DNA from: Mesostigma viride
Taxonomy: Eukaryota > Streptophyta > Mesostigmatophyceae > Mesostigmatales > Mesostigmataceae
Direction: 5' to 3'
Length of the DNA: 64,000 bases
Assembly (NCBI GenBank): GCA_009746045.1
Contig: RPFO01000213.1
Coordinates: forward strand, 790,564-854,563
Shown here: piece after piece, positions 27,425 to 51,329 of the stretch
How the letters are laid out: every line of letters starts with the position of its first letter
How positions within the stretch are numbered: the stretch's first letter is position 1
Made by a program: the position numbers and the translations under genes
Notes under the pieces: model-generated
Databases searched by the model: none
The model's input: the letters and a program-made list of their open reading frames with translations, nothing else
What the model was told of the DNA's origin: nothing

Positions 27425-28137
27425 AGCTGTTAGGCTTGGCAACACATATATAGAAACAACATGCATAGCACTTGACATCCCTCCCAGCTCTCTGTAGTCT
27501 CTGCTCGGGATTAATCAAGCACCAGATCACAACACATCTCAGCCATGACGAATTACAATGAATTCCCTATCCACTGGAAGTAGAAAGCCAGGTGTTTGGA
27601 GTAGCAGCTTGTGGCTAACCAGAATAATGACCAAAATGGAATCATCACCATAATGGCTCCTGATTGGAACCCCACAAGTTACCCACAAGACCTTATCAGG
27701 TAGACATTGATAGTTTAATCAGAACTGGCGCCCACCATGGTCTGAGAAATAGCACATCCGACAAAATATATTAAGAACATGACGAACTATCTTCCTCTGT
27801 CTGGGACAAAACTAGGGGGACCTGTCGCCACCTCACCAGCAAGCTAGGTTGATGGGCCAGCCAATCCGGGAAAATCCGCCTAAGCAGCCCCAGGGAATCG
27901 AACCCTGCCCATTAAAATCCATTTGGTTGAGACAAACCTCAAACTGAGGGCAAACCCCCAACCAACACCATGCTCCATGACTGAGCATTACATATAATAC
28001 AGTATTATACACATATGTACACAGAGCATTACTGCCCTCAGAGCATCACAGCTCTCAGCATAACAGAGCCCAGCTCAATGTTAGCTCTTCTCACCCATCA
28101 GTCACCAAACTCAAAGCTCAAACTGGAATTGCTCAAC
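27355..28137 (-). other. Element C 3' untranslated region
   Basis: No ORF of note. It contains a segment (about 27815-27925) also conserved in the 3' UTR of D, including a hairpin like a tRNA T-arm (CAGGG, TTCGATT, CCCTG on the minus strand) and GGTGGCGACAGGTCCCC. Confidence 0.55.
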
Positions 28138-29850
28138 TCACATAGAGGAGCTCATCAGTTTATAAAGAAGCTTGTATTGTTCAGCAGACTTGTGAGGCAA
28201 CTTGGTCAAGGCATCAGCAGGATTCTCAGAACCTGGAAGATGTTGAATATCCACCAGACCTGCCAACTCCTTCAACAGGAGATAATCCAGATCTCTGCTT
28301 CTGGCCAACTGCTTGTGCACAAACTGGACCATGCCCATGTTATCTGAAAGGATCAAGGTGTCCAGCTGAAGAGTATGAGGAGTAACTGAAGCCATAGCTA
28401 GCAACAGCTCCTTGATGTACAAACTGCATGGACTGAATCCCTTCACAAAGGGCTCTGCACTCAGAGACATCTGAACTCACAGCAACCCTTCTTTGAAGAC
28501 GACTGTACCAGGCCACAAGACTAGGCCTATGTTGCTGAAGCACAAACAAGCCAGCTGACCTGCCTCTGACCTTAGAAACTTGCCTGCTATCCATGGAGCT
28601 ATCAACATAGATATCCAAGGAAAATGGCAAAGACAAATCAATCCCAGCTAAAGTAATACCAGGAGACTTGTTAACATGTGCAATAATCTGGGAAGGCTCC
28701 TCCAGAATCAGCACATCATCAGGGGATCTGCTATGGACCATCATCATTGTCAGGCCCACAAATGCTGCCATACCAGGCCAACTTGCCTTTTTTCAGCTCA
28801 GGTGCAATGGATGATGTCATGACCTCTGGAACAGATTGAAGAATGGTACTCTTGTAGTCATTGCCTGCCTGCAGCTTAATCAGCCACTGACTCCCCTCCT
28901 GAACCAATGTAGCCTGCATTCCACAGAACGTGACAGCCTCTCCAGGCTTCTGCCACAATTCTTTTCCCAAAGGAAATGCTTCATTAATGATGGGCACAAA
29001 CTGACTCAACCACTTAGTGGGAGCAATCAAGTGCAAGTCATCACCATGCAGGCTAGCATACACAGGTAAATCATGCCACCTATACCCAGCAATAAACATG
29101 GGTCCGCAGATGACACCTTCAATCCACAGTGCTTAGTCAAGAAGTCTTCCAAGGTGAGCCTCCAAATGATGGGACTGGACCTGAGACCTTCTAGACCCTT
29201 CAGAATCAGCAGGTAGCTAGACTGGAGCTCTGCCTGCCAGGCTACAGGAACTGGCACATGAAATGGAGTTTCACAATGCCACACATGCTGAGCCACACTG
29301 GGATCACCCTTCAGAAATGCTCTCTTGAAATCTAGCAGAACTGAAGACATATCAGCACCCTGGTTCAGCATACCGACATACATGCAGGCACAATACAATA
29401 CGCCATGTATCATGTAGCATCCCAGGCGTATACAACTCCTCGCCCAGAAGATCCAGGCCAGTACCACGGTATTCATTAAGAACTGGACGCACATGGGGAA
29501 CAGACACCCCCTCCACCTCCTTCCGCTTGATGACGAATCTGAGCTTCAACCGTGTACTGTATGGGGGAACTTCATTCACAGGCTGACAGCAGTCAAACTG
29601 CAACCACTCCTCTAGGGCCTTGGCAAATGCTAGCCTCCAGGCCTAAAACATCAGAGGAGAACTCATTTCCTGGACACGCTGATCATAGCTAAGAGGAGAA
29701 TGAGCAGCCAGTGATCGCTGAGTAATACCAATACTGCTAGGATGGAGAGCAGCTGGCATCACAAGACTGGAAGCCACAGGAATCTGATCCTCAGGCCACT
29801 GCACATTCTTGATCGCTTTCACAGAGAAAAAATTAAAATTCAGGGCCCTG
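28138..29850 (-). pseudogene. rt-rh: Element C reverse transcriptase and RNase H
   Basis: Broken into several frames. RT motifs: RLKLRFVIKRK, VLLDFKRAFLKGD, LKGLEGLRSSPIIWRL and YASLHGDDLHLIAP (box HGDD at 29037-29048). RNase H: YVDSSMDSRQV, VSECRALCEG, LSDNMGMVQF and NPADALTKLP. Frame changes occur near 29050, 29360, 28770 and 28440, and an in-frame TAG lies near 29642-29644. These are the closest relatives of D pol in the window. Confidence 0.85.
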
Positions 29851-30098
29851 AAGTTACACTGTAGTCAGTGGAATGCTACCCCAACCCTTACGAATAAGGC
29901 TATGAGATAAAACCACAACTCCAGGGGTGCAAAGAAAATTCTGACCCAAAATGATGGGGCCATCATAGTCTTCCAGCACTAGGAAGGAAACATCTACACC
30001 CATAACTGGCAAGATGATTTCTCCTACCACTTTCAAATGAACCCTGCCACTAAAGTCAGACACCCAGGAACAGCTAGACTGGCCAATCTGCCGCTGCC
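29851..30098 (-). pseudogene. pr: Element C protease, C-terminal half
   Basis: Encodes VSDFSGRVHLKVVGEI, VDVSFLVLEDYDGP and IILGQNFL, matching residues about 548-592 of D pol. Its N-terminal half lies on the far side of D at 39842 onward. D inserted 17 residues before this segment. Confidence 0.8.
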
Positions 30099-30103
30099 CT
30101 GTA
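30099..30103. repeat. Target duplication of D, left (CTGTA)
   Basis: CTGTA is repeated at 39842-39846. Removing D with one copy joins the protease of C in frame. Confidence 0.9.
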
Positions 30104-30590
30104 AGTTAACGCCAAGCGCATTGGCGTGATCCTGATTCGGCATATCTCTGCGATTCCAGCGGCACCGGAACGAGTTCATTCCGACAAGTATCAAGAAAGT
30201 TATGGCGTTCCGACTTCCCGGTCGCGCGCGAGCGCGAGCCGGCTGTTCTTCTAAGTCGGACGTGAATATTTGCCGACGACATATGGGGTCGACAGTAATT
30301 CCTGGGCTGACAGGAATTAGGTGCTGTACCTACGACGGTATTGGATTAATACGTCGTACGCAGGAAATAGGAACCTTAACCTGTGGTCTGTTGGTACCGC
30401 AGGCTTAGTCCTGGACTTCTAGGTGCAGATGCAATAGTCACTGTGGACTGCGCTCTGTGGTCACTGTGCCTGTATGGCAGACCTACTGTATAGGAACTGG
30501 GCGCTGTACAGGTAGTGAATACTGTACCGGGAGTGTTATTACTGAGCCTACCTCTTAGGTTGCTCAGGACTAGCAAGCACAGTGCACAAG

Positions 30591-30598
30591 TATATAAA
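30591..30598 (+). promoter_or_regulatory. TATA box in D 5' LTR
   Basis: TATATAAA about 490 bp into the LTR and about 200 bp before the LTR end (U excluded), the expected layout for a U3/R promoter. Conserved in all four D-family LTRs (39633-39640 in the 3' LTR). Confidence 0.55.
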
Positions 30599-30719
30599 CA
30601 ATAGGCCAATGCCATTTGGGCAGATCTCTTGCGAGCCCGCCTCACGTGTTGTGCCTTGACTTGGCAAGCGCGTGTACAAGCCTCAAGTGTGTGAGCGCTG
30701 TAACATTATCCAATTTTAA

Positions 30720-32439
30720 CACGTCGTACGTCAAAACTCAGTCCTAAAAATAGGACTGAGTATGCCAACTTTGAGATCATGTAGCGGTAAGGGTAGGGGG
30801 GTACCCCATATGTTTGATATGCATCAGAGCACTCAATATCATGCTAATGCTTGGGCATATGCCTAAAAAATCATATGTTGACCAAATCATGTAAAATTTT
30901 ACAAGGGTGTCAACCCATGCTCGCGATTTGGCAATTTTCTGTGGAAGGACGAGTTGGGAAAATTCAATAAAATCCATATGCATGTTGAAAAAATATAGGC
31001 GTGTAAACAATATAGTTCTTGAAACATGGCAAAAAACTGGGCTCAATTTGGCCACAGCCTCTACCTGAAACTCACCAAAAACCACCAGCCCTAAGAATGG
31101 GTTTCGAGGTTGCTAGCAATGTGCAAGCATGTAAGTGCGGTCATACTACACACCACCGTGGCAACCAACCATGCCAATCAACTCATTTCCCTTCTAGCAT
31201 AACAGGAAAACATACTTGCATCATCATATTGCAGTTATATTATACCTTAGTATATGTGTGAGAGCCTATGCACGCACGTAGGGAATGGGCATTGATACCT
31301 ACCTACAAAGGGTTTTATTATGAGCCTTAACCACCAACATAATGGGTAGGTTAAGCATATTTCAATTGTTTTTAACAAGAATAGAGATGGCTAACACTGT
31401 TTTGCCTTGCCATGGCATGGCCAACATACTTGCTGGCACATGATGACAGTGGTTTATCACCAAGATTCTTCACTCACCCGTATAAGCTTGAAAGCACGCT
31501 GGATGCAGCCCATGGCCATACAATCACGCAGTATGAACGTAGCAAAAGAATAACTAACATCTATGAAGGTATTTAAACCCATACAGCGCCTAAAAAACTG
31601 CAAAAGTACACTAGGGTAAGGCAAATGCCTGGTAACATCATAAAAAATGGGGGGTTTAGAGAGGGGCAGGCAACGGTCAAGAAAGCGCATCAAGATTCGA
31701 AACTGACAGCGCCTTGCAAGCTCAAACTCATGTAAGAACATAACAAAACGATGAGGTGACGATATTTCAGCTTTACCGTGCACGGATGGCGTTATCTTGG
31801 CCCAGGCGGTGCCCGCAAAAGTGACACTTGCGGCACACAAACCATGACATGACAGAGTGGTCGAAATCATCAAATCTTTACTGCCACTGACTTAATTCTA
31901 CACACATGCATGATAATAAGTAGAAAGAAGCATATAAACCCTTGGAACTGCACCGTAAAGTAAATTTAGTCATCAATTCCGTCAACCTGCCTGGTCGCAG
32001 TTTTTTCCAGCAAGAGCAGTGCCGACACCTGGTAAATCGCATCCCCGGGAGCTAAAAATTGGTTTGTGTCATCTTTAGGACATATAAAATCTATTTCCTG
32101 GGTTTTACCAGCTAAATCGTCCGCAAACGTAAACTGCATGCATGGGCGCAAGCCGCCATGGCTAGGTCGTGCATTTCCGGAACTCACGTTTCACGTGAAA
32201 AAGTACCCTTACCACCTGTACTTTGACCGTACATTTAGCCGCCCAAACAAAATCCAAAAAAATCGCAAAAATATGTCTAAGAAAGGTCATTTCACGTAGT
32301 ATTTGAATAAATTTTGAGGGAATTTTTTTGACAAACATTCCGACTTGGGCGAATTTTCTACGAAACCCAAAAACTCAGTCCTAAGAATAGGACTGAGTTG
32401 AACTCAGTCCTAAGAATAGGTGCAGTGACGAACGACGTG
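30720..32439. mobile_element. U: 1.7-kb element with TTAA flanks and AGTCCTAA hairpins
   Basis: Flanked by TTAA (30716-30719 and 32440-32443) within the 5' LTR of D. Terminal inverted repeats of about 15 bp: CACGTCGTACGTCA and its reverse complement with one mismatch. Just inside each end is a 26-nt hairpin (ACTCAGTCCTA...TAGGACTGAGT; 30736-30761 and 32373-32398) plus a partial third copy. The interior shares about 700 bp with 20230-21000. TTAA duplication recalls piggyBac or Kolobok families, but no DDD transposase is visible. Confidence 0.75.
31780..32140 (-). pseudogene. Exon-like coding segments within U, including a Cys-rich motif
   Basis: On the minus strand, TFADDLAGKTQEIDF...QFLAPGDAIYQV ends at ...TATRQ before a GT (about 32138-31985). 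About 110 nt further on FDDFDHSVMSWFVCRKCHFCGH ends RAR before GTAAAG (about 31875-31780). The copy at 20230-21000 has both segments with similar wording and GT at the same places. This looks like exons of a spliced gene with a Cx2Cx2CGH zinc-binding-like motif. I cannot name the family; it may be transposase-related or captured host sequence. Confidence 0.35.
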
Positions 32440-32618
32440 TTAACAAAGCTCCGTTTCCAACCATATTCACACATTGCTGCATTGCAACCATATCCTTCAC
32501 ATTGCGTGTGCCAGGAACGTTAACTCAAATTACAACCAGTCTCAGCGGAACGGCCAGGAGGGTCGTTGCCGGTTGCGGTGTGCAGCGTTGACGACGCGAG
32601 GAGTTCGTCCGGTGGTGA

Positions 32619-33521
32619 ATGGTGCAGGAAGAACAACGGCAGCAGGATTTCCGGTTTCGGCAGTCTGCTGGGGGTTCGATTTCGCCTGAATTGCGTCGTG
32701 TCGTTCGGGATCTATCTTTATTGCTTGCAGATCGTCCGCCTGTTAATCGCAGCTTCGTGCAATTCGTCGACGACCAGGTCGAAGATTGGGAGCGAATTCT
32801 GCGGCACGTACAAACCATCGTCATTCCGGAGCACCGGAGCATCGACGACCTCGAGCAGGAGCTTCACGGTTGGTCGGCATCCAGACGGTGATTACAGCAG
32901 TAGCTGAGCGAGTGCGGACGGAGTTGGCGGCAAGGCGAGGCGAGGTTGCGGAGGCAGCTGGCGCAGGGCGACACGAGTTTGTACCGACAGTAGCGGGCGC
33001 GGGAGTACCACGTACTTTCGCAGGGTCATCGGCGACGAGGGTGTTGCAGCGGGGCCAGTTAGGCGTGAACGACGCGGAGCGGAGCACTACAGGCGGCTTG
33101 CAGAGGTCGGGGCGACAGCGGAAGCCATCACCGGAGGACAGCGCGCGACAAGAGTCGGCAGGTTTCCGGAGCGAGTAAGGTTCCTTTTCAGGAACTGCCC
33201 CCCCCTTCGCGTTCGTGTGACGCGTTGGGAGGAGTTTGCACCTCTTGGGTACGATAGTGACCTTGAGGTGGGAGCAGGGGGTGTCGCTGGGCTAGGCGAC
33301 GAGACACTTGGCGACCACGAGGTGCCAAGATACAATCCGCGGGGTGCCAACGACGGGTTGTCACCTGTCTACTATACCAACGGTGACGATTCAGTCATCG
33401 CGGGCCGACAGCGGGTCGACGACGGCGCAGCGGTAGCAGGGTACCAGAGCTGATTGTGGTGAGCGACAGCGACAAGGAGAACCAGGACGCGCCTGGGGCC
33501 AGCCGTGGTGGTCTTGCCTGA
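32619..33521 (+). pseudogene. Element D ORF1 (frameshifted)
   Basis: Homolog of the intact 306-residue ORF1 of D' (61248-62168). The reading frame begins MVQEEQRQQDFRF and breaks near 32870 and again further on; the acidic C-terminus (SDKENQDAP) is recognisable before TGA at 33519-33521. Function unknown. Confidence 0.75.
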
Positions 33522-33623
33522 GTGGTAACACTTGGCACTTTCCTTTCTTGTTCAGTAGCTTATATTGCTTTAATTGCTGCTTGGCCACTTGGCTGGCTGT
33601 AGCAGATCTGAACAGAGGCCATC

Positions 33624-34808
33624 ATGGATGATGGAGCTATCAACCAACAAGCGGGCTTTATGGGCTTTGCGCGGCGCGGCGCTGGGATGGATGGACGAGA
33701 TGGACGCGATGGACGCGGTGGACGCGATGGACGCGGGGACGGCCAGGCGCTGGGAGACCAGGCTGAGGTGCCAGATAATCAGAGCCAAGGATCGCAGGGC
33801 GGTCAGACGCGCCAGCCGCAGATCAAGCGGCGCCTAAGCGACCACCGTGGCTGAGGGGTACGCGGTGCTAGGCCAGTTTCAGTCCATCAAGGACAATTGG
33901 CAGCCCCGGGATGCTGAGAGGATGTTAGAGGACATGAACTTGTACACGGAGATATACAACGGTGACAAGCTTCGCATCCTGGCGTCTAGTGCCTACATAC
34001 GGCAGTCGGCGAGGCGGCTGTTCAAGTTTGTTCGGGAGCGACACGCGGCGGGGGACACCTGGGCGGCGTTTATGACGCGACTCAGGTGTTCCTGAGTGAC
34101 AAGAGGACCATAGATGGGTCCCACCTGAAGCAAGAATACCTGGACTACAAGCCCATCAAGGGGCAGCTAGTGGTCCACGCCTTTGAAGACTTCGTCAAGC
34201 TGAGGGAGGACGCCATGGCCAAGGGCTTCTTCGTCGCAGATCGGATGGCCATGGGCGACTTTCTCAAGTCGCTGCAGCTGGATCCGGTCACCATGGATAA
34301 TGTGACCATCCACATGCGACAGGTCCATGGCTGGGCAGCCATGACGGACCAGTTGTATGAGTGTTTCAGCGGCAAGTACGTGGGTGGTAAGCGCCCTCGT
34401 CAGGGTGATGAGGAGGCCACTGAACCCACGGTTAAGTCCATGAGGGGATCGGGCCACGGGGGCCCAGCGCCCTCGAGAGGGCCTGAGACCTCTTCAAGGG
34501 GTCGAGGAAGGTCCAGGAGGGGGCGTGACAGAAGGGCTGGACGGGGGACCCCGCCGAAGTCGGGACATCCACAGTCCCAGTTTGACTTCAAGAGGGTGGG
34601 TGGTCCTCCCAAGGCTGGGCCCAGCAGTGGGACCTCACGGGACATCAGTCAGGTGGAATGTTATTTCTGCCAGGGGAAGGGTCACTTCAGGAATGAGTGT
34701 CCCTCGTACCTGAGGCAGGAAGGTCAGAGCAAGCCAGCTCAGGGTGGCAGCAAGGACAAGGCTGGTCCATCCCAGGACAAGGGCAAGGGCAAGGCTGCTG
34801 ATCATTGA
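33624..34808 (+). pseudogene. gag: Element D gag (two frameshifts)
   Basis: Starts MDDGAINQQAGF with a GRDGRDGRG repeat. The frame is lost near 33810 (short deletion against D') and near 34088 (one G missing in CTCAGGTGTTCC). The capsid-like helical part is followed by an Arg/Gly-rich segment (SSRGRGRSRRGRDRRAGRG) and one zinc knuckle, CYFCQGKGHFRNEC. It ends at TGA (34806-34808), in the same frame as pol. Confidence 0.85.
34806..34808 (+). promoter_or_regulatory. Candidate UGA readthrough site between D gag and pol
   Basis: The gag stop is UGA followed by CUU; the same frame is then open through pol with no ATG at its start (first listed codon is GTG at 34842). D' has the identical arrangement. 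This suggests stop-codon readthrough to make Gag-Pol, like UAG readthrough in gammaretroviruses. Confidence 0.55.
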
Positions 34809-37800
34809 CTTGAGCCTGCACACATCCCTGAACCCTGGAGGGTGCCCCCAGGGGTGTGTAATGAAGCTGCTAGTGACAGCAGTGAGGGGCAGCCCCATGC
34901 TCTAGTGAAAGAGCCTATTGGACACGATGGGGCAAGCTTGGTTACCACAGAGAGTATGCCAGCTGTAGCTGCAGTGGTTACTCGCCAACGTGCCCGCCAT
35001 GGCGGTGCTGAGCCTGAGGTAGGACCTGGTGATGTGGACCCAGGTGGATCTCAGAAGCATTCTGACCGTGCAGGACTGGCACAGGATGGTCAGGATGAGG
35101 ATAGGGCTGGAGACAGTCTGACAGGCACGACCCTGGTGCCTCCTGTACATAAGGGATCTGTACATACCTTGAGTGCTAATAATGACAATAAAAGGTTTTC
35201 TCTCTTGTATGACATTGCCTCAAGGTTGCATACCATGTTTGGCCATGCAGCTCAGTCTTTGCAAGTTGCTAGACGGCTGGGAGGAAGTGAGTTGTACTCC
35301 ATCTGCCAACAGGTTGCTCAAGCTTGCAAGTGCAGGCTAGTTGCTAGAAAGCCCAAGCAGTCTCATGCCAGGACTCCTATTTTGCAGCCAGGCCATGTGC
35401 AGGTAGATATTCAGAGAATCAGGGGTTTGAAGCTGCTGGTGGCAGTGGACAGATATACCAAGTACAAGACCCTAGAGATCCTGCCTGACATGGAGAAGCC
35501 TACATTGATTGCTGCTCTGAAGTTGACAAGGAGCAGGTACCCTGGGTTGGAGTTGTTGCAGTGTGACATTCAGTTTGAGTGCTGTGAGAACCTGCCAGAG
35601 TTTCCAGAGTTGCTGATTACACCCAGGGAGAGCCACGGCCAGCAAGGGGTGGTGGAGAGAGCCATCCAAGAGATCAAGACTGTGCTGCTGGTGGAGAGGA
35701 TTCCAAGGACGTCATCTGCCATTGTGACATCTGCATGGCTACGTTCTGTGGAGGACAGGCTGAACCTGAGGACTCCCATGTTCTTTGGTGACATTGCCAT
35801 CAATCCTCTTATGCTGCATACCAGGATGCTGCCAGCTGATGCTGAGCAGGCATGGAAGGAGAAGCTAGAGGCCAAGTTCCTCAAGCTGAGGCAGAAAGAC
35901 AAGGGCTGGAGTGTCCTAGAACCTAACGTTGGACAACAGGTTGTTGTGTGGAAGGAACCAAGCTTTCCAGGGAAACGTGGCAGCTGGCATGATGGGGTGG
36001 TGACCCGAGTAGAAGCCGCTGGCCATAAGTGCTGGGTGGCCATTGATGGCTCCCAAGCAGTGCACCGTCTGTCCTGGTCAAAGATCCGTCCCCGGGGAGG
36101 TAATCAAGGAGACCTCTTCCAGGTGCCCGCTGGTGTACAAGGCGGGGGTGACGTGGAGCTTCCTGATCAGGGTGCTACAGCTGTATCGAGCCCTCAGGGT
36201 GACCCTGGCCCGGCCCCTGGGGTACCTTCACATACGGTGGTTGGGCAAGCAGGCGGACAGGCTGCACCTCCGGAACGGCCCGACACCAGGCCTAGGGGTG
36301 TGCGTCTATCAGATATTGTACAGGCTTTGCAAAGAGCCAAGAAGGAGCCTAAGGTGTCCAAGCTTGTCCAGTTGGATGAACCTGAGGTAGCTGCCATGGA
36401 GATAGATACCAATGCACAGGTTTCTGTCATGGGACCTCAGCATACAGGAGAACTGCTGGTCGGAGAACCAAGTTGCCCCTGGGTGTCTGATTTCAGTGGT
36501 AGGACGCATCTAAGGGTGTTGGGAGAGGTTACTGCCCCTGTCATGGGTGTGGATGTGACCTTCCTTGTCCTAGAGGACTATGATGGCCCTGTGATTTTGG
36601 GTCAGAATTTTCTGGGCAATCCTGGGATTTCTATCAGAGCTACAGCTCTGAGAAGAGATGGCTGGGGGATGATTCCCCTAGAAAATTTCAGGACAACATT
36701 TCCAGTCAGGTGCAGGGCCAAGCCGGTCAAGGGTGTAAAATGGGATGAAGGGGAGGTGCCCCCAGCGGCCAGTTTGGTGATTCCAGCTGTGTTGCACCCC
36801 AGCAGTATTGGCATAACTCACAGGAGCCTTGCTGCACACTCTCCTTTGACATATGACCAGCTGGTCCAAGAGATGAGCTCGCCTACTTTGTTTGAGGCTT
36901 GGAAGCTCGCCTTCTCCAAGGCATTGGAGGAGTGGTTGCAGTTTGAGTGTGCTGCACCAACAGACAGACGTCCCCCAGCATCAAGGAAGCTTGCTTTGAG
37001 ATTTGTGCTGAAGAGGAAGGTTGTGGATGAGGTATCAGTGCCCCATGTCAGGCCTGTCCTGAATGAGTATCACGGCACGGGGAGTCTGCCAGGAGAGGAG
37101 CTATACACGCCAGGGATGCTACACGACACATGGAGAATTTTGCTATGTCTCTACGTGGGGTTGCTGAACAGGGGAGCAGCTATGTCATCAGTGCTGCTGG
37201 ACTTCAAGAGGGCATTTTTAAAATCTGATCCAGAAGTGGCCAGGAGGGTGTGGAAGCAGGATGAGCCTTACTGTGTTGAGGTGCCTGCCATCTGGAAGCT
37301 GGAGCTGCATCAACAATTCCTGGTTATTCTGAAGGGCCTGGAAGGACTCAGGTCGAGCCCAATCATCTGGAGACTCACGCTGCAGGAAGCTCTGATCAGT
37401 GAGTGTGGCTTGAGAGTGTCTTCAGTTGATCCCTGTTTGCTGCTGGCCCAATGGGAGGGTCTGCCAGTGTATGCTAGTTTGCATGGAGATGATCTGCATT
37501 TGCTAGCCCCCACGACCTGGCTGAAGAAGTTTATTCCTGTCATCAGTGGCAAGTTTTCACTGGGCAAGGAGCTGTGGCAGGAGCCCAACAAGCCTGTAGT
37601 GTTCTGTGGAATGCAGGCTACCCTGTTCAGGAGGGACGGGGAGTGGAGTATCAGGCTTCAGGCTGGAGGAGATTATAAACAGACCATTGTGAAGGCCTTG
37701 CCAGAGAAGATCACCCAGGCTGCAGGACCTGAGTTGAGAGGCATGTGGGCCTGGTTTGCCAGCATCTGTGGTCCGTCTTTGATGGTCCATAGCAGAATGC

Positions 37801-38399
37801 CTGATGAGGTGCTTGAGGATGAGAAGCCTCGAGTCATAGCCCGGTTGGTGGAGAGTACCCCTGATCTGATTTTGTCTGGGATTGACTTTGCCCAGCCTAT
37901 CACCTTGGAGATCTTTGTTGACAGTTCCATGGATGCTCGCCAGGTTACCAAGGTCAGGGGGAGATCTGCTGCTCTGTTTGCTTTTTATCAGAGCAGGGCA
38001 AGTTTGTTCAGCTGGTACAGCAGACTGCAGAAGAGGGTCTGTATCAGTTCAGATGTGGCAGAATGCAGGGCCATATGCGAGGGGATCCAGTCCAGCCTGT
38101 ACATAAAGGAGTTAATGCTGGAGCTGGCTTCAGTTACCCCTTGGACCTTGCAGATGGAGACGTTGTTGCTAACAGACAGCATGGGTATGGTCCAGTTTGT
38201 TCACAAGCAGCTGGCCAGAAGCCGGGACCTGGATTATTTGTTGCTGAAGGAGTTGGCCAGTTTGGTTGACTTGAAGCATATCCCTGGCGAGGAGAACCCT
38301 GCTGATGCATTGACAAAGCTGCCACACAAGGCCCCAGCCCAGTACAATGTACTGAGGAAGCTCATGAATGCTGACTGTCAAGTCGGTCTATCTGTCTAA
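34809..38399 (+). CDS. pol: Element D pol: integrase, protease, RT, RNase H
   Basis: Intact polyprotein; residue numbers count from 34842. INT: HTMFGH (about 130-135) and CKC zinc region, then D189 (VQVDIQ), D242 (QCDIQF) and E272 (GVVERA), with the same 53/30 spacing as B. A basic/Trp C-terminal module (GKRGSWHDGV) follows at 377-386. PR after INT: MEIDTNAQVSVM (D522) and VILGQNFL (584-591). RT: LDFKRAFLK (D787), KGLEGLRSSPIIW and SLHGDDLHL (881-884; 37482-37493). RNase H: FVDSSMDAR (D1027), AECRAICE (E1074), LTDSMGMV (D1112), ending NPADALTKLP. No protease motif lies between gag and INT. RT and RNase H are Copia type; the order is not. Confidence 0.95.
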   Translation, partial: LEPAHIPEPWRVPPGVCNEAASDSSEGQPHALVKEPIGHDGASLVTTESMPAVAAVVTRQRARHGGAEPEVGPGDVDPGGSQKHSDRAGLAQDGQDEDRAGDSLTGTTLVPPVHKGSVHTLSANNDNKRFSLLYDIASRLHTMFGHAAQSLQVARRLGGSELYSICQQVAQACKCRLVARKPKQSHARTPILQPGHVQVDIQRIRGLKLLVAVDRYTKYKTLEILPDMEKPTLIAALKLTRSRYPGLELLQCDIQFECCENLPEFPELLITPRESHGQQGVVERAIQEIKTVLLVERIPRTSSAIVTSAWLRSVEDRLNLRTPMFFGDIAINPLMLHTRMLPADAEQAWKEKLEAKFLKLRQKDKGWSVLEPNVGQQVVVWKEPSFPGKRGSWHDGVVTRVEAAGHKCWVAIDGSQAVHRLSWSKIRPRGGNQGDLFQVPAGVQGGGDVELPDQGATAVSSPQGDPGPAPGVPSHTVVGQAGGQAAPPERPDTRPRGVRLSDIVQALQRAKKEPKVSKLVQLDEPEVAAMEIDTNAQVSVMGPQHTGELLVGEPSCPWVSDFSGRTHLRVLGEVTAPVMGVDVTFLVLEDYDGPVILGQNFLGNPGISIRATALRRDGWGMIPLENFRTTFPVRCRAKPVKGVKWDEGEVPPAASLVIPAVLHPSSIGITHRSLAAHSPLTYDQLVQEMSSPTLFEAWKLAFSKALEEWLQFECAAPTDRRPPASRKLALRFVLKRKVVDEVSVPHVRPVLNEYHGTGSLPGEELYTPGMLHDTWRILLCLYVGLLNRGAAMSSVLLDFKRAFLKSDPEVARRVWKQDEPYCVEVPAIWKLELHQQFLVILKGLEGLRSSPIIWRLTLQEALISECGLRVSSVDPCLLLAQWEGLPVYASLHGDDLHLLAPTTWLKKFIPVISGKFSLGKELWQEPNKPVVFCGMQATLFRRDGEWSIRLQAGGDYKQTIVKALPEKITQAAGPELRGMWAWFASICGPSLMVHSRMPDEVLEDEKPRVIARLVESTPDLILSGIDFAQPITLEIFVDSSMDARQVTKVRGRSAALFAFYQSRASLFSWYSRLQKRVCISSDVAECRAICEGIQSSLYIKELMLELASVTPWTLQMETLLLTDSMGMVQFVHKQLARSRDLDYLLLKELASLVDLKHIPGEENPADALTKLPHKAPAQYNVLRKLMNADCQVGLSV

Positions 38400-39128
38400 A
38401 AGCTGAGAGCTGGGTGCTTAAGTCTCTGGATATCAGGCTGGGAGCTTGATTGTACATAATCCTGAGCACACCTTGAGGGGTGAGACATGTCTCTGGTGTG
38501 GGAATGTCTGACATTGTCTCTGATGGAGAGATGTCTATCTGGGGTTTTCATCTCAGTCTGAGGTTTCCCCAGATCTGTGGTTTGTGGGCGGGGTTCGATT
38601 CCCTGGTGCCGTCTTAAGGCGGAGTTTCACGGACTGGCTGACCCATCCACCATGCTGGTGAGGTGGCGACAGGTCCCCTGATTTTCCACGGTTGGAACGA
38701 GTATGGGAGCTTGTGTTTTGCATGTGCTTCGCGTAGATGTTGTGTCTGGTTCGATAAGGGGCAGCAGACCGGCGCCGACTCCCGTCTGGGGGTCAGCAAT
38801 GTTTTCTGATGAGCTGTTGTGGGTGATCTGTGGGGTTTCGCCTAAGGTCCTGAAGGTTGTACATACTTCTCAAGTTCTTAACTGAACACCTATGGGCTGC
38901 CACAGTTGGCCAACCTCTTGTACATGGGTAACACAACGAGCCTCCCGTGAAGGGATAGGGACTCATTGTAATTTGTTTGTGCTCCTGAGCCAGTATGGGT
39001 GCTATGTACATATAATAAGGAATCCAAGCTGACTGTCATGCCCAGCGGGTTGTGACTTGTAGTCGGGGAGGATATCCAGTACCCATTGTGTGTGTTTGTA
39101 TGTAGACTTGTGTGAGCTGCTACAGCTC
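38400..39128 (+). other. Element D 3' untranslated region
   Basis: About 730 bp without a supported ORF. At about 38586-38606 a hairpin CGGGG-TTCGATT-CCCTG resembles a tRNA T-arm or B-box; it and the following 90 bp are conserved in C and D'. Confidence 0.6.
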
Positions 39129-39146
39129 AAGAAAAGAAAGGATTGG
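39129..39146 (+). promoter_or_regulatory. Polypurine tract of D
   Basis: AAGAAAAGAAAGGATTGG abuts the AGTTAACGCC start of the 3' LTR. Confidence 0.8.
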
Positions 39147-39841
39147 AGTTAACGCCAAGCGCATTGGCGTGATCCTGATTCGGCATATCTCTGCGATTCC
39201 AGCGGCACCGGAACGAGTTCATTCCGACAAGTATCAAGAAAGTTATGGCGTTCCGACTTCCCGGTCGCGCGCGAGCGCGAGCCGGCTGTTCTTCTAAGTC
39301 GGACGTGAATATTTGCCGACGACATATGGGGTCGACAGTAATTCCTGGGCTGACAGGAATTAGGTGCTGTACCTACGACGGTATTGGATTAATACGTCGT
39401 ACGCAGGAAATAGGAACCTTAACCTGTGGTCTGTTGGTACCGCAGGCTTAGTCCTGGACTTCTAGGTGCAGATGCAATAGTCACTGTGGACTGTGCTCTG
39501 TGGTCACTGTGCCTGTATGGCAGACCTACTGTATAGGAGCTGGGCGCTGTACAGGTAGTGAATACTGTACCGGGGTGTTATTACTGAGCAGGCCTCCTAG
39601 GCTGCTCAGGACTAGCAAGCACAGTGCACAAGTATATAAACAATAGGCCAGTGCCAAATGGGCATCTCTTGCGAGCCCGCCTCACGTGTTGTGCCTTGAC
39701 TTGGCAAGCGCGTGTACAAGCCTCAAGTGTGTGAGCGCTGTAACATTATCCAATTTTAACAAAGCTCCGTTTCCAACCATATTCACACATTGCTGCATTG
39801 CAACCATATCCTTCACATTGCGTGTGCCAGGAACGTTAACT
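39147..39841 (+). repeat. Element D 3' LTR
   Basis: 695 bp, AGTTAAC...GTTAACT, followed by CTGTA (39842-39846). Closest by eye to the LTRs of D'. Confidence 0.95.
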
Positions 39842-40189
39842 CTGTATGCTGAGACCCCATCATGGAGACCTCTGCATTGGTATCTACTTCTAGTGCAGTG
39901 CACTTGGACTCCCCCAACTGGCTGAGCTTGGACACCCGAGGCTTTTGCTTGGCTTTTTGCATAGCCAGCACCACATCTTTCAGGCCCACACCTCTATGCT
40001 TAGTGAGGCTAGAGGGGACCACATCTGCCTGTTCTAAATCTGGAAAGTTAACCGGTCCAGGGGTCTGGCCAGGACTTACCTGGGGATTACTTCCAGCCGG
40101 AACGTGATGATCAGGGATGACGTCATGACCAACTGGCAAGGTTGTCACATCAGGAGTTACTGCCTCTGCTTCAGCACCCCTTAGACGTA
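39842..40189 (-). pseudogene. pr: Element C protease N-terminus and linker
   Basis: Encodes LKDVVLAMQKAKQKPRVSKL then ALEVDTNAEVSMMGSQHT, the DTG-equivalent written DTNA. Upstream in C is an acidic/Pro linker as in D. Interrupted by D five residues after MGSQH. Confidence 0.85.
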
Positions 40190-40798
40190 CATATTGTCAA
40201 AAATCCTAATAATGCGTCAACGAATGAGCTCAAATGTTGCGGCACAACTCATTTCATTAATACAATAAAAGACGCATATATAGAATTTAAGGACCGTGAC
40301 CGGTGTCCATTGCCAAGCCACAAGGCAACTGGCCCACCATCAGGTAACGTGTAAAGGTGCACACCGACCTCTTAAACAATGTCCAATGTCGGCTGCACAC
40401 ATTATCCCTACGTTAACTTAACACATAAAGTGTCTCGACTTGAACAACTGGCACACAAAATCCACTAGGCAATGATGCGAATATTCGGCACCAATATTCG
40501 ACCCCACTATTGCGCGGCGCTAGGAGTTAGCCACCGCCAAATGGCACGAGATACTCACGCCCTACAAGCCGTACCATGCAACCACAAGGTAGAGCCGAAT
40601 TAATCCTAACTTCGGCACCTAATATCTTTGTGCATACTCAACTGTCCGTCATAAGAAAAGTACCGCCGGAAAGAACACGGCAAGCCCTACTCAGCCCTAA
40701 TAATATCCTTGGCCAGAAAATACAGAAGATTGGCCACAACATAACATAGGCTGGCAAACGGGCACATCCAGGGTTTATACTAAAACCCTGACACATAT
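40190..40798. mobile_element. About 0.6-kb insertion in C between integrase and protease
   Basis: Alignment of C to D breaks after the equivalent of VHRLSW (about 40799) and resumes at the RPRGG equivalent (about 40189). The ends (ACATATTGTCA; TCATATGTGTCA on the other strand) are weakly inverted. No ORF or clear duplication. Confidence 0.45.
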
Positions 40799-41647
40799 GA
40801 CCACGACAGACTGTGCACATTCTGGGGAGGATCCTCCATCTTCACCCAGCACTTGTGCCCAGCTAGTTCCACCCTGGTCACTACTCCATGCAGGGTGCCA
40901 GCTACCACGCTTGCCTGCAAGCTTGGGCTCTTTCCACACAATTACCCTTTGGCCAACAACAGGTTTCAGAACACTCCAGCCCTTGTCTTTCTGCCTCAAC
41001 TTGGCAAACTTGAACATAAGGCTATCTTTCCAGGCTTGCTCAACCTCAGTAGGGAGCTCCCGAAGATGCAATGATAATGGAGTCACAGGGACCTCTCCAA
41101 CATACATGGATGCCCTGACATTCAATCTGTCCTCAACCAGTGACCTCAACCAGGCCGTCTTGATAATAGCTGGAACCAATCTGGGAATCTTCTTCTCCGT
41201 CAGTAGAATAGTCTTGAGTTCTCTGATTGTCCTCTCCACCACGCCTTGACTGCCATGGGACTCCCTGTGGACAACAAATAACTCAGGGAGGTCTTCATGC
41301 CCCATGCAGCACTCAAATTCTAAATCACACTGCAGCTGGATCACTGGTTTCATTCTGGATCTGATAGCCTGGAGCCCAGCCACCAAACATGGCTTAGACT
41401 TGTCTTGCAACAGCTCCAGCACCTTGTCCTTGGTGTATCTGTCAACACCAACCAACAAAATCAGTTTCCTGATTTCTTGGATATCACATTGTACATATCC
41501 AGGCTGCAACACAGGTTGTCTGACATGAGACATCTTAGGCTTGGGAGCAACCAGCCTACAGAAACAAGCCTCAGCAACCTGCTTTACTGCATTAAACAAA
41601 GATGTCCCTCCCAGCCTCCTTGCAAACTGAAGTGCCTGGGCAGCATG
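40799..41647 (-). pseudogene. int: Element C integrase, central and C-terminal part
   Basis: Encodes LQFARRLGGTSLFN, Cys-rich zinc part (ACFCR), YVQCDIQEI (first Asp), LQCDLEFECC (second Asp), GVVERTIRE (Glu) and KGWSVLKPVVGQRVIVW. One frame change is near 40890, in the C-terminal module. The N-terminal portion continues at 62965 beyond D'. Confidence 0.85.
41643..41647. repeat. Target duplication of D', left (GCATG)
   Basis: GCATG recurs at 62960-62964 immediately outside the other LTR of D'. Confidence 0.9.
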
Positions 41648-42347
41648 AGTTAACGTTCCTAGCAAACGCAATGTGAAGGATATGGTTGCAATGCAGCAAT
41701 GTGTGAATATGGTTGGAAACGGAGCTTTGTTAAAATTGGATAATGTTACAGCGCTCACACACTTGAGGCTTGTACACGCGCTTGCCAAGTCAAGGCACAA
41801 CACGTGAGGCGGGCTCGCAAGAGATGCCCAATTGGCACTGGTCTATTGTTTATATACTTGCACATGCACTGTGCTTGCTAGTCCTGAGCAGCCTAGGAGG
41901 CCTGCTCAGTAATAACACCCCCGGTACAGTATTCACTACCTGTACAGCGCCCAGCTCCTATACAGTAGGTCTGCCATACAGGCACAGTGACCACAGAGCA
42001 CAGTCCACAGTGACTATTGCATCTGCACCTAGAAGTCCAGGACTAAGCCTGCGGTACCAACAGACCACAGGTTAAGGTTCCTATTTCCTGCGTACGACGT
42101 ATTAATCCAATACCGTCGTAGGTACAGCACCTAATTCCTGTCAGCCCAGGAATTACTGTCGACCCCATATGTCGTCGGCAAATATTCACGTCCGACTTAG
42201 AAGAACAGCCGGCTCGCGCTCGCGCGCGACCGGGAAGTCGGAACGCCATAACTTTCTTGATACTTGTCGGAATGAACTCGTTCCGGTGCCGCTGGAATCG
42301 CAGAGATATGCCGAATCAGGATCACGCCAATGCGCTTGGCGTTAACT
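41648..42347 (-). repeat. Element D' 3' LTR
   Basis: Ends AGTTAAC/GTTAACT; the reverse complement matches 39147-39841 with few differences. Confidence 0.95.
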
Positions 42348-43094
42348 CCAATCCTTTCTTTTCTTGAGCTGTAGCAGCTCACACAAGTCTACATACAAAC
42401 ACACACAATGGGTACTGGATATCCTCCCCGACTACAAGTCACAACCCGCTGGGCATGACAGTCAGCTTGGATTCCTTATTATATGTACATAGCACCCATA
42501 CTGGCTCAGGAGCACAAACAAATTACAATGAGTCCCTATCCCTTCACGGGAGGCTCGTTGTGTTACCCATGTACAAGAGGTTGGCCAACTGTGGCAGCCC
42601 ATAGGTGTTCAGCTAAGAACTTGAGAAGTATGTACAACCTTCAGGACCTTAGGCGAAACCCCACAGATCACCCACAACAGCTCATCAGAAAACATTGCTG
42701 ACCCCCAGACGGGAGTCGGCGCCGGTCTGCTGCCCCTTATCGAACCAGACACAACATCTACGCGAAGCACATGCAAAACACAAGCTCCCATACTCGTTCC
42801 AACCGTGGAAAATCAGGGGACCTGTCGCCACCTCACCAGCATGGTGGATGGGTCAGCCAGTCCGTGAAACTCCGCCTTAAGACGGCACCAGGGAATCGAA
42901 CCCCGCCCACAAACCACAGATCTGGGGAAACCTCAGACTGAGATGAAAACCCCAGATAGACATCTCTCCATCAGAGACAATGTCAGACATTCCCACACCA
43001 GAGACATGTCTCACCCCTCAAGGTGTGCTCAGGATTATGTACAATCAAGCTCCCAGCCTGATATCCAGAGACTTAAGCACCCAGCTCTCAGCTT
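42348..43094 (-). other. Element D' 3' UTR and polypurine tract
   Basis: Mirror of 38400-39146 of D, including the T-arm-like hairpin at about 42889-42909 and the AAGAAAAGAAAGGATTGG tract (42348-42365 on the minus strand). Confidence 0.8.
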
Positions 43095-46000
43095 TTAGAC
43101 AGATAGACCGACTTGACAGTCAGCATTCATGAGCTTCCTCAGTACATTGTACTGGGCTGGGGCCTTGTGTGGCAGCTTTGTCAATGCATCAGCAGGGTTC
43201 TCCTCGCCAGGGATATGCTTCAAGTCAACCAAACTGGCCAACTCCTTCAGCAACAAATAATCCAGGTCCCGGCTTCTGGCCAGCTGCTTGTGAACAAACT
43301 GGACCATACCCATGCTGTCTGTTAGCAACAACGTCTCCATCTGCAAGGTCCAAGGGGTAACTGAAGCCAGCTCCAGCATTAACTCCTTTATGTACAGGCT
43401 GGACTGGATCCCCTCGCATATGGCCCTGCATTCTGCCACATCTGAACTGATACAGACCCTCTTCTGCAGTCTGCTGTACCAGCTGAACAAACTTGCCCTG
43501 CTCTGATAAAAAGCAAACAGAGCAGCAGATCTCCCCCTGACCTTGGTAACCTGGCGAGCATCCATGGAACTGTCAACAAAGATCTCCAAGGTGATAGGCT
43601 GGGCAAAGTCAATCCCAGACAAAATCAGATCAGGGGTACTCTCCACCAACCGGGCTATGACTCGAGGCTTCTCATCCTCAAGCACCTCATCAGGCATTCT
43701 GCTATGGACCATCAAAGACGGACCACAGATGCTGGCAAACCAGGCCCACATGCCTCTCAACTCAGGTCCTGCAGCCTGGGTGATCTTCTCTGGCAAGGCC
43801 TTCACAATGGTCTGTTTATAATCTCCTCCAGCCTGAAGCCTGATACTCCACTCCCCGTCCCTCCTGAACAGGGTAGCCTGCATTCCACAGAACACTACAG
43901 GCTTGTTGGGCTCCTGCCACAGCTCCTTGCCCAGTGAAAACTTGCCACTGATGACAGGAATAAACTTCTTCAGCCAGGTCGTGGGGGCTAGCAAATGCAG
44001 ATCATCTCCATGCAAACTAGCATACACTGGCAGACCCTCCCATTGGGCCAGCAGCAAACAGGGATCAACTGAAGACACTCTCAAGCCACACTCACTGATC
44101 AGAGCTTCCTGCAGCGTGAGTCTCCAGATGATTGGGCTCGACCTGAGTCCTTCCAGGCCCTTCAGAATAACCAGGAATTGTTGATGCAGCTCCAGCTTCC
44201 AGATGGCAGGCACCTCAACACAGTAAGGCTCATCCTGCTTCCACACCCTCCTGGCCACTTCTGGATCAGATTTTAAAAATGCCCTCTTGAAGTCCAGCAG
44301 CACTGATGACATAGCTGCTCCCCTGTTCAGCAACCCCACGTAGAGACATAGCAAAATTCTCCATGTGTCGTGTAGCATCCCTGGCGTGTATAGCTCCTCT
44401 CCTGGCAGACTCCCCGTGCCGTGATACTCATTCAGGACAGGCCTGACATGGGGCACTGATACCTCATCCACAACCTTCCTCTTCAGCACAAATCTCAAAG
44501 CAAGCTTCCTTGATGCTGGGGGACGTCTGTCTGTTGGTGCAGCACACTCAAACTGCAACCACTCCTCCAATGCCTTGGAGAAGGCGAGCTTCCAAGCCTC
44601 AAACAAAGTAGGCGAGCTCATCTCTTGGACCAGCTGGTCATATGTCAAAGGAGAGTGTGCAGCAAGGCTCCTGTGAGTTATGCCAATACTGCTGGGGTGC
44701 AACACAGCTGGAATCACCAAACTGGCCGCTGGGGGCACCTCCCCTTCATCCCATTTTACACCCTTGACCGGCTTGGCCCTGCACCTGACTGGAAATGTTG
44801 TCCTGAAATTTTCTAGGGGAATCATCCCCCAGCCATCTCTTCTCAGAGCTGTAGCTCTGATAGAAATCCCAGGATTGCCCAGAAAATTCTGACCCAAAAT
44901 CACAGGGCCATCATAGTCCTCTAGGACAAGGAAGGTCACATCCACACCCATGACAGGGGCAGTAACCTCTCCCAACACCCTTAGATGCGTCCTACCACTG
45001 AAATCAGACACCCAGGGGCAACTTGGTTCTCCGACCAGCAGTTCTCCTGTATGCTGAGGTCCCATGACAGAAACCTGTGCATTGGTATCTATCTCCATGG
45101 CAGCTACCTCAGGTTCATCCAACTGGACAAGCTTGGACACCTTAGGCTCCTTCTTGGCTCTTTGCAAAGCCTGTACAATATCTGATAGACGCACACCCCT
45201 AGGCCTGGTGTCGGGCCGTTCCGGAGGTGCAGCCTGTCCGCCTGCTTGCCCAACCACCGTATGTGAAGGTACCCCAGGGGCCGGGCCAGGGTCACCCTGA
45301 GGGCTCGATACAGCTGTAGCACCCTGATCAGGAAGCTCCACGTCACCCCCGCCTTGTACACCAGCGGGCACCTGGAAGAGGTCTCCTTGATTACCTCCCC
45401 GGGGACGGATCTTTGACCAGGACAGACGGTGCACTGCTTGGGAGCCATCAATGGCCACCCAGCACTTATGGCCAGCGGCTTCTACTCGGGTCACCACCCC
45501 ATCATGCCAGCTGCCACGTTTCCCTGGAAAGCTTGGTTCCTTCCACACAACAACCTGTTGTCCAACGTTAGGTTCTAGGACACTCCAGCCCTTGTCTTTC
45601 TGCCTCAGCTTGAGGAACTTGGCCTCTAGCTTCTCCTTCCATGCCTGCTCAGCATCAGCTGGCAGCATCCTGGTATGCAGCATAAGAGGATTGATGGCAA
45701 TGTCACCAAAGAACATGGGAGTCCTCAGGTTCAGCCTGTCCTCCACAGAACGTAGCCATGCAGATGTCACAATGGCAGATGACGTCCTTGGAATCCTCTC
45801 CACCAGCAGCACAGTCTTGATCTCTTGGATGGCTCTCTCCACCACCCCTTGCTGGCCGTGGCTCTCCCTGGGTGTAATCAGCAACTCTGGAAACTCTGGC
45901 AGGTTCTCACAGCACTCAAACTGAATGTCACACTGCAACAACTCCAACCCAGGGTACCTGCTCCTTGTCAACTTCAGAGCAGCAATCAATGTAGGCTTCT

Positions 46001-46685
46001 CCATGTCAGGCAGGATCTCTAGGGTCTTGTACTTGGTATATCTGTCCACTGCCACCAGCAGCTTCAAACCCCTGATTCTCTGAATATCTACCTGCACATG
46101 GCCTGGCTGCAAAATAGGAGTCCTGGCATGAGACTGCTTGGGCTTTCTAGCAACTAGCCTGCACTTGCAAGCTTGAGCAACCTGTTGGCAGATGGAGTAC
46201 AACTCACTTCCTCCCAGCCGTCTAGCAACTTGCAAAGACTGAGCTGCATGGCCAAACATGGTATGCAACCTTGAGGCAATGTCATACAAGAGAGAAAACC
46301 TTTTATTGTCATTATTAGCACTCAAGGTATGTACAGATCCCTTATGTACAGGAGGCACCAGGGTCGTGCCTGTCAGACTGTCTCCAGCCCTATCCTCATC
46401 CTGACCATCCTGTGCCAGTCCTGCACGGTCAGAATGCTTCTGAGATCCACCTGGGTCCACATCACCAGGTCCTACCTCAGGCTCAGCACCGCCATGGCGG
46501 GCACGTTGGCGAGTAACCACTGCAGCTACAGCTGGCATACTCTCTGTGGTAACCAAGCTTGCCCCATCGTGTCCAATAGGCTCTTTCACTAGAGCATGGG
46601 GCTGCCCCTCACTGCCGTCACTAGCAGCTACATTACACACCCCTGGGGGCACCCTCCAGGGTTCAGGGATGTGTGCAGGCTCAAG
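43095..46685 (-). CDS. pol: Element D' pol: integrase, protease, RT, RNase H
   Basis: 1185 residues from the first listed codon (GTG at 46652), the same length as D pol with a few substitutions near the N-terminus (for example NVAASDGS for NEAASDSS). All catalytic motifs described for D are present: DTNAQVSVM, ILGQNFL, LDFKRAFLK, LHGDDLHL, VDSSMDAR and NPADALTK. In the same frame as the gag tail, separated by the single TGA at 46686-46688. Confidence 0.95.
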   Translation of the reverse strand, partial: LEPAHIPEPWRVPPGVCNVAASDGSEGQPHALVKEPIGHDGASLVTTESMPAVAAVVTRQRARHGGAEPEVGPGDVDPGGSQKHSDRAGLAQDGQDEDRAGDSLTGTTLVPPVHKGSVHTLSANNDNKRFSLLYDIASRLHTMFGHAAQSLQVARRLGGSELYSICQQVAQACKCRLVARKPKQSHARTPILQPGHVQVDIQRIRGLKLLVAVDRYTKYKTLEILPDMEKPTLIAALKLTRSRYPGLELLQCDIQFECCENLPEFPELLITPRESHGQQGVVERAIQEIKTVLLVERIPRTSSAIVTSAWLRSVEDRLNLRTPMFFGDIAINPLMLHTRMLPADAEQAWKEKLEAKFLKLRQKDKGWSVLEPNVGQQVVVWKEPSFPGKRGSWHDGVVTRVEAAGHKCWVAIDGSQAVHRLSWSKIRPRGGNQGDLFQVPAGVQGGGDVELPDQGATAVSSPQGDPGPAPGVPSHTVVGQAGGQAAPPERPDTRPRGVRLSDIVQALQRAKKEPKVSKLVQLDEPEVAAMEIDTNAQVSVMGPQHTGELLVGEPSCPWVSDFSGRTHLRVLGEVTAPVMGVDVTFLVLEDYDGPVILGQNFLGNPGISIRATALRRDGWGMIPLENFRTTFPVRCRAKPVKGVKWDEGEVPPAASLVIPAVLHPSSIGITHRSLAAHSPLTYDQLVQEMSSPTLFEAWKLAFSKALEEWLQFECAAPTDRRPPASRKLALRFVLKRKVVDEVSVPHVRPVLNEYHGTGSLPGEELYTPGMLHDTWRILLCLYVGLLNRGAAMSSVLLDFKRAFLKSDPEVARRVWKQDEPYCVEVPAIWKLELHQQFLVILKGLEGLRSSPIIWRLTLQEALISECGLRVSSVDPCLLLAQWEGLPVYASLHGDDLHLLAPTTWLKKFIPVISGKFSLGKELWQEPNKPVVFCGMQATLFRRDGEWSIRLQAGGDYKQTIVKALPEKITQAAGPELRGMWAWFASICGPSLMVHSRMPDEVLEDEKPRVIARLVESTPDLILSGIDFAQPITLEIFVDSSMDARQVTKVRGRSAALFAFYQSRASLFSWYSRLQKRVCISSDVAECRAICEGIQSSLYIKELMLELASVTPWTLQMETLLLTDSMGMVQFVHKQLARSRDLDYLLLKELASLVDLKHIPGEENPADALTKLPHKAPAQYNVLRKLMNADCQVGLSV

Positions 46686-46823
46686 TCAATGATCAGCAGC
46701 CTTGCCCTTGCCCTTATCCTGGGATGGACCAGCCTTGTCCTTGCTGCCACCCTGAGCTGGCTTGCTCTGACCTTCCTGCCTCAGGTACGAGGGACACTCA
46801 TTCCTGAAGTGACCCTTCCCCTG
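46686..46823 (-). pseudogene. gag: Element D' gag, C-terminal piece
   Basis: Encodes KGHFRNECPSYLRQEG through GKAADH, TGA. This is the second half of the zinc knuckle; the first half is at 60096 onward. V1 separates them. Confidence 0.9.
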
Positions 46824-47160
46824 CACTAGGAACTCAGATCTGAGATTTTTCTCAGTTTTCTCAGTTTTCTCAGGAAGGCTGCCTGAGATTTCCTGAGATT
46901 TCCTGAGATGTCCTGAGATTTCCTGAGATTTCCTGAGATCAACTGAGAAAAATCTCAGTTTTCTCAGGAAAACTGAGAAAATCACCTGAGAAAACTGAGA
47001 AAACTGAGAAAAAACTGAGATCAGCCTGAGAAAGTCGCCTGGCCTGAGATTTTTTTTTCTCAGGAACGAAATTTCTCAGGCGCCCGGTTTTTTCTCAGGT
47101 TGCTGCCTGAGAAAATCTGGGAAACTTAAGGCCTGAGAAAAACTGAGAAACCTCATGCAC
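46824..47160. repeat. Subterminal CTGAGATTTCC repeat array of V1 (left end)
   Basis: Dense direct and inverted copies of CTGAGATTTC / CTCAGTTTTC. Equivalent arrays: 52090-52390, 57360-57622, 59620-59716, 59730-60093. Short ORFs here are periodic artefacts. Confidence 0.85.
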
Positions 47161-47271
47161 ACAGAGAAATCGCATTCATACCACGCAACCAGAAATCACT
47201 TTGATTACAAATTATAATAATTTCTTGTGCAGTTGGAGTACAGCTCTTCAAGTTTAATAAGAACATCAATT

Positions 47272-47687: not shown

Positions 47688-47703
47688 GCCATCCTCGCTG
47701 CCA

Positions 47704-47769
47704 CACTAGGAACGGAGTGTTGACAAACTTTGACAATTGTTTGTCAAGAATTGTCAAATAGTTCTAGTG
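47704..47769. mobile_element. 66-bp CACTAG...CTAGTG mini-element with TTGACAA repeats
   Basis: Starts CACTAGGAAC like V but continues GGAGTGTTGACAAAC; the other end reads GTTCTAGTG. The interior consists of TTGACAA motifs, which recur at 48120-48450. The same block is in V2 (56751-56816). Could be a CACTA-type MITE older than the V copies. Confidence 0.4.
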
Positions 47770-49220
<1,451 letters not shown>

Positions 49221-51280: not shown

Positions 51281-51329
51281 CCAGTGCCCCACCCATGTCC
51301 ACAGCGACACCCCGGAGACTTCACCACGC

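Follow-up and report, generated by a model that had tools for sequence, protein, structure and literature searches.

Copia-related retrotransposons of Mesostigma viride with a predicted retropepsin between integrase and reverse transcriptase

A stretch of 64,000 nucleotides of the Mesostigma viride genome (GenBank assembly GCA_009746045.1, contig RPFO01000213.1, positions 790,564 to 854,563 of the forward strand; hereafter the window, whose numbering is used throughout) holds long terminal repeat (LTR) retrotransposons, labelled A to D, of a Copia-related group in which the domains of pol follow gag in the order integrase (INT), protease (PR), reverse transcriptase (RT) and RNase H (RH). The order is firmly established for D within the window and, through open copies elsewhere in the genome, for B and for A2, a member of the A family. 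It is highly probable that these elements form a Copia-related lineage with the order gag-INT-PR-RT-RH, in which a constrained predicted retropepsin is the only recognisable protease and processes both Pol and Gag. Direct support comes from the domain order, the predicted fold, the constraint on it, the failure to find another protease, the LTRs, the target duplications and many near-identical copies. The order had been noticed in a first-pass annotation of the window; that observation is confirmed here, and its interpretation is supported as essentially right.

For D, an integrase, an aspartic protease, a Copia-type RT and an RNase H had been read along pol, with the motifs DTNA and ILGQNF at residues 522 and 585. 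All of these lie in one open frame, and both motif positions hold when counted from 34842. The window contains two copies, D1 and D2, with the following parts:

34809-38399, forward strand: D1 pol, 1196 residues, INT-PR-RT-RH in one open frame
35205-36095, forward strand: D1 integrase (HHCC, D, D, E) with C-terminal domain, from alignment with B, A, A2 and the database protein P0001
36363-36713, forward strand: D1 predicted retropepsin domain (DTNA ... ILGQNF), from the structure model, its top matches to Ddi1 and the profile
36744-38396, forward strand: D1 RT and RNase H, Copia type, from 34% identity to the B RT-RH and the family alignment to Copia proteins
33990-34808, forward strand: part of D1 gag with a zinc knuckle (zf-CCHC 23.1 bits, cut-off 20.8); frame broken upstream in this copy
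30104-30721 and 32440-32526, forward strand: D1 5' LTR, interrupted by an insertion at about 30722-32439 (blastn with the D LTR of contig C572; target duplication CTGTA)
39147-39842, forward strand: D1 3' LTR (blastn with the same LTR)
41647-62959, reverse strand: D2, with LTRs at 62267-62959 and 41647-42347 (target duplication CATGC)
60094-62260 and 42348-46823, reverse strand: internal parts of D2, split by about 13.3 kb
43095-46685, reverse strand: D2 pol, with integrase at 45399-46289 and protease at 44781-45131, from homology to D and the protease profile

The same order had been claimed for A, B and C. Post-integrase matches to the protease profile are found in all three; as separate cases the window copies count for less, A and C being decayed or interrupted, B split, and C not independent of D. 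Their parts are as follows:

14010-15938, reverse strand: B INT-PR frame, integrase at 14874-15767 and protease at 14073-14429 (DTQA ... LLGQPF)
10557-12245, reverse strand: B RT and RNase H (RVT_2 E 7.9e-5), parted from INT-PR by an insertion in the window copy
15896-16927, reverse strand: B gag, overlapping pol by 43 nt (15896-15938) in another frame
3324-4249, forward strand: A integrase in two frames (3324-3626 and 3629-4249), from tblastn with the B integrase
4571-4935, forward strand: A protease (DTQA) in two overlapping frames, from homology and the protease profile
4939-5712, forward strand: part of A RT (RVT_2 E 1.4e-4)
40792-41646, reverse strand: C integrase, decayed and cut by the D2 insertion (tblastn with the D integrase, 61%)
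39843-39995, reverse strand: first piece of the C protease (DTNA), from homology and the protease profile; D1 is inserted inside this gene
29866-30102, reverse strand: second piece of the C protease (ILGQNF), from the same two sources
27816-29865, reverse strand: C RT-RH remnants, from blastn with D internal DNA

Across the genome (440 Mb in 2243 contigs), better preserved copies carry the case. B is homologous to D in every part (30% identity in INT, 39% in PR and 34% in RT-RH), and its copy at locus L039 has the entire pol as a single 1194-codon frame. The A piece matches 106 places, two of which were read: at L057, the frame of A2 is unbroken between the zinc knuckles and the end of RNase H and takes in INT, PR and RT, while at L058 the frame of A spans zinc knuckle to RT. 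A and A2 are 27% identical to D in INT and 31-33% in PR. One further A-family match (C1646:2045400-2046530) lies inside an open frame reported as 4325 residues, far longer than the element's own pol. C is about 61% like D over the main INT piece, with 61-66% over PR, which makes it a sister of D; thus the order is common to three deep lineages, not to the four diverged families first counted. This older C element hosts both D copies, D1 having landed in its protease gene and D2 in its integrase gene. D1 and D2, which lie in opposite directions, account for a 4.9-kb inverted repeat of 100% identity (34671-39575 and 41919-46823).

Database searches, each scoring 8000 candidates, yielded P0001 (62% over the frame), P0002 (99%, an RT-RH piece), a pair of RT proteins from Mesostigma (41 and 56%), and the more distant P0005 and P0006 from plants and P0007 from a Joint Genome Institute (JGI) source; no relative was found in the viral contigs searched. 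Nested and inverted copies fill the window, which might suggest that the order arose by misassembly or by a chance recombination in a single family. This explanation has next to no probability and is rejected, since the order is common to three lineages about 30% alike, occurs at many places in the genome and is also present in P0001, which comes from a separate data source.

The RT is assigned to the Copia type through the Pfam family RVT_2, which matches P0003, a Mesostigma RT-RH fragment 41% like D, at 48 bits (cut-off 31.6) and A2 at 31.1 bits, within 0.5 bit of the cut-off; matches in B, A, B2, P0001 and P0004 are weaker. No Pfam row for RVT_1 was returned at E<=1 or E<=10, in a scan whose filters may drop weak matches. 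Furthermore, in hhalign the RT-RH of the family is colinear with two ordinary Copia proteins (E 3.2e-12 over 459 columns and 9.5e-11 over 442 columns). In an unrooted tree of ten RT-RH rows, the seven family rows stand apart from the three Copia rows with 100/100 support. The integrase keeps its HHCC and D, D, E residues in all five aligned rows (D, B, A2, A and P0001). Its rve matches are below the cut-off in A2 (E 5.3e-6) and A (E 5.4e-5) and weak in D (E 0.057), and the integrase profile gave a single, unrelated match in the PDB (E 1.1). By eye count, 29 residues separate the second D from the E in D, B and A2 (DD29E), the usual spacing being 35.

The segment between integrase and RT is predicted to have a retropepsin fold, as had been proposed for residues 510-620 of D. 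Six-frame translation of the window gives 1279 segments of 30 residues or more, all of which were searched with a protease profile. At E<1e-3 this profile matches post-integrase segments only, in A (3605-4768 and 4720-4935), B (14013-15938), C (39816-40196 and 29857-30105), D (34809-38396) and D2 (43098-46685). Non-significant extras occur in an overlapping A frame (4371-4535, E 0.058) and inside the A integrase (E 17-37), and five shuffled sets gave no match at E<1e-3. Detection also works across lineages: B rows by themselves give a profile that recovers A, C and D, and D rows by themselves (D and P0001) one that recovers A, B and C. After the A and A2 rows had been added to the alignment and this had been trimmed, AlphaFold2 modelled the D1 domain with a predicted local distance difference test score (pLDDT) of 81.9, and the top structural matches in Foldseek are Ddi1. 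Below the Pfam cut-offs, gag-asp_proteas matches D, P0001, A and A2, and Peptidase_A2_2 and Asp_protease_2 match A2, the former also weakly A. Matches to DDI1, PF13975, PF12382 and PF13650 hint that the protease may be nearer to the Gypsy type than to the Copia type.

In the seven aligned protease rows, the active-site triad with its following residue reads DTNA twice, DTQA four times and DTQG once, the last in a decayed copy. The Asp, the Thr and the following Q-V-S are invariant in 7/7 rows; the decayed C has E for that Q. The C-terminal motif of two hydrophobic residues and a glycine is present as ILGQNF, LLGQPF, LLGEPF and, in the decayed copy, LVGQPF. The domain is under strong constraint.

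A second protease upstream of the integrase, which the first-pass annotation had named as evidence that would overturn its interpretation, was not found. Between gag and INT, none was detected in B, D or the uninterrupted A2 frame by profile, Pfam, motif or reading; the annotation had made the same statement for B and D. In this interval the pattern D-[T/S]-[GNQA]-[AS] was matched only once, by an ADSGS near 33404 where a stop soon ends the frame, and in A2 no DTG-like motif is present in the roughly 120 residues that separate the HHCC motif from the first knuckle. The post-integrase retropepsin thus appears to be the element's sole recognisable protease. A canonical Copia protease could nevertheless be hidden between gag and integrase, too diverged to be seen, with the second protease as an addition. 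No fold is assigned to the 125 residues that precede INT in D or to the post-knuckle linker of A2, and retroelement proteases diverge fast according to the part of a fungal survey consulted (PMC3248453). Against these considerations stand the empty searches just described, and a hidden protease is very improbable.

Several observations weigh against the interpretation of these elements as Copia-related retrotransposons with a working retropepsin. In the Pfam scan RVT_2 was not found in D itself, the RT-RH tree has no Gypsy outgroup, and no primer-binding site was recognised by eye in the sequence after the 5' LTR. For the protease, Foldseek with the final model gave no match at E<=0.001; the first model, built from seven rows, was poor (pLDDT 41.9) and placed Ddi1 first at a non-significant E of 0.57. 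The best PDB profile match has E 0.033 and no match of a single protease sequence is significant (phmmer of the whole D pol against the PDB gave 0 matches), the best Pfam match has E 0.0017 with all Pfam matches of the domain below cut-off, and B, B2 and the C protease piece match no retropepsin family in Pfam. Of five regions, four have a synonymous divergence (dS) above 1, and nonsynonymous divergence (dN) taken alone is slightly lower in RT (0.085) than in PR (0.092). Finally, none of the seven aligned rows keeps the glycine of the usual retropepsin triad, D-[T/S]-G; N or Q stands in its place, an unusual substitution for a functional enzyme. The same D-T-[N/Q]-A centre favours a rival explanation, that the domain keeps the retropepsin fold and no longer cuts, acting within RT as a module for dimerisation or folding while a host protease matures the proteins or maturation is unneeded. 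Such a role is rather unlikely, given that Asp and Thr are invariant in 7/7 rows including the decayed copy, that the domain is under strong constraint, and that the elements move without another recognisable protease.

Mobility is documented by the ends of the elements. The LTRs of the D copy on contig C572 are 99.86% identical over 697 columns, those of D2 show no mismatch and one gap in 697 columns, and those of D1 have 10 mismatches in 618 columns and none in 87. Five-bp target duplications flank 5/5 insertions checked (CGGGC on C572, CTGTA and CATGC for D; CGCAC and TGAGT for B). The LTRs of D and B start with AGTT and end with AACT, not TG...CA (D 30104-39842; B L044:3764-9505). D pol has 100% protein identity over the full frame at 39/39 places scored of 10,179 first-look candidates, which marks D as young; the group as a whole has been active recently.

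The gag-pol junction differs by lineage: D has an in-frame UGA, B an overlap of 43 nt between different frames, and A2 an unbroken frame. In D, gag and pol share a frame parted by this one UGA (34806-34808), which is alike with its context in 8/8 distinct copies (L003 and L042 being one copy); because the eight are nearly identical, this conservation is weak evidence for read-through. The B overlap ends GCT CAG GAA AAC TGA and shows no canonical slippery heptamer on inspection by eye, and therefore reinitiation at a nearby ATG is equally possible.

Further features adjoin these elements. The insertion in the D1 5' LTR (about 30716-32443, 1.7 kb) has the edges TTAACACGTCGT ... ACGACGTGTTAA with a 12-bp inverted repeat and is DNA-transposon-like. 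Inside D2, some 13.3 kb (46824-60093) are largely palindromic, with arms at 46900-48584/55938-57622, 49110-51218/53288-55396 and 51190-52094/52410-53314 that are all 100% identical, either a composite inverted element or an assembly effect. Upstream of D2 gag lies a 306-codon frame (61248-62168) with no Pfam match at E<=1, and a tandem array of a 10-bp unit (19598-19971) adjoins the 5' end of the B element.

From this material we infer catalysis, cleavage sites, dimerisation and the evolutionary route. Gag-Pol would probably be made below the level of Gag in D, through the UGA, and in B, through the 43-nt overlap or reinitiation, and A2 perhaps makes one single polyprotein. The protease would dimerise as Gag-Pol packs into particles and cut itself from the middle of Pol, freeing integrase upstream and RT-RNase H downstream; alternatively it may stay joined to RT, because it directly precedes it. 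It would also mature Gag, after which reverse transcription would proceed in the ordinary way and integration would use a 5-bp stagger. As to the route, the usual Copia protease may have given way to a new one, or one of the two domains, protease or integrase, may have moved. The order had been called a circular permutation of the Gypsy order (PR-RT-RH-INT), which is sound as a description; as an event, protease replacement or a moved integrase fits equally. An unlikely, broader alternative is a separate branch beside Copia with a third integrase site, in which the integrase was acquired or relocated independently, starting from a gag-PR-RT-RH ancestor (after RNase H in Gypsy and BEL, between PR and RT in Copia, and here between gag and PR), the D-T-[N/Q]-A protease being the old one beside RT and not a late capture.

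In the parts of the sources consulted, Pol of the Pseudoviridae is given as PR, INT, RT-RH in the profile of the International Committee on Taxonomy of Viruses (PMC8515867), and the Copia integrase is placed between protease and RT in the fungal survey (PMC3248453). No description of the order INT-PR-RT-RH was found in the full-text literature among the matches listed, Repbase and most subscription papers being outside this coverage, in line with the earlier statement that no such family is known. The clade could be real and already catalogued, for instance in Repbase or another paper, which would bear on novelty and is compatible with the interpretation of the elements given here. The publication of the Mesostigma genome in 2019 included an annotation of its LTR elements that relied on programs and on Repbase (PMC6947507). 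On the other side, besides the literature result, the word 'Copia' has 0 occurrences in the accessible main text of either Mesostigma genome paper, and an earlier catalogue entry is considered improbable.

Copia and Gypsy are told apart by the site of the integrase, and a third order in a young, high-copy lineage implies that this class mark is not fixed. The order has been retained across deep divergence (about 30% identity), and annotation by domain order will mislabel this class. The group also offers a natural test of how retroelement parts rearrange and of how a protease in mid-Pol frees its neighbours, and in its D-T-[N/Q]-A centre nature provides a variant of an intensively studied enzyme.

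Compared with known systems, the elements share with Ty1/Copia (Pseudoviridae) an RVT_2-type RT, a colinear RNase H end, LTRs, target duplication, a zinc-knuckle gag and an integrase upstream of RT, but differ in the protease after integrase, the D-T-[N/Q]-A triad, LTRs of the form AG...CT and the DD29E spacing. The D, B and A2 frames thus depart from gag-PR-INT-RT-RH, one defining Copia feature, and the group is therefore named Copia-related and not Copia. With Ty3/Gypsy (Metaviridae) and retroviruses they share a PR directly followed by RT-RH and the cyclic domain order, whereas here the integrase precedes PR instead of following RNase H, and the RT matches RVT_2, with no RVT_1 match reported. 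In fold and in profile, the protease domain matches the retroviral-like proteases DDI1 and ASPRV1 best, although DDI1 and DDI2 are cellular proteins that have D-S-G-A in the alignments and the present domain is D-T-[N/Q]-A within a retroelement polyprotein. Goodwin and Poulter reportedly described Gypsy-like elements with a Copia-like domain order in 2002. Those are likewise LTR elements with a changed integrase position, but combine a Gypsy-like RT with the Copia order, whereas here a Copia-type RT goes with an integrase before the protease. Finally, the foamy-virus protease-RT structure 7o0h, present in the Foldseek listing, provides a precedent for a protease left joined to RT.

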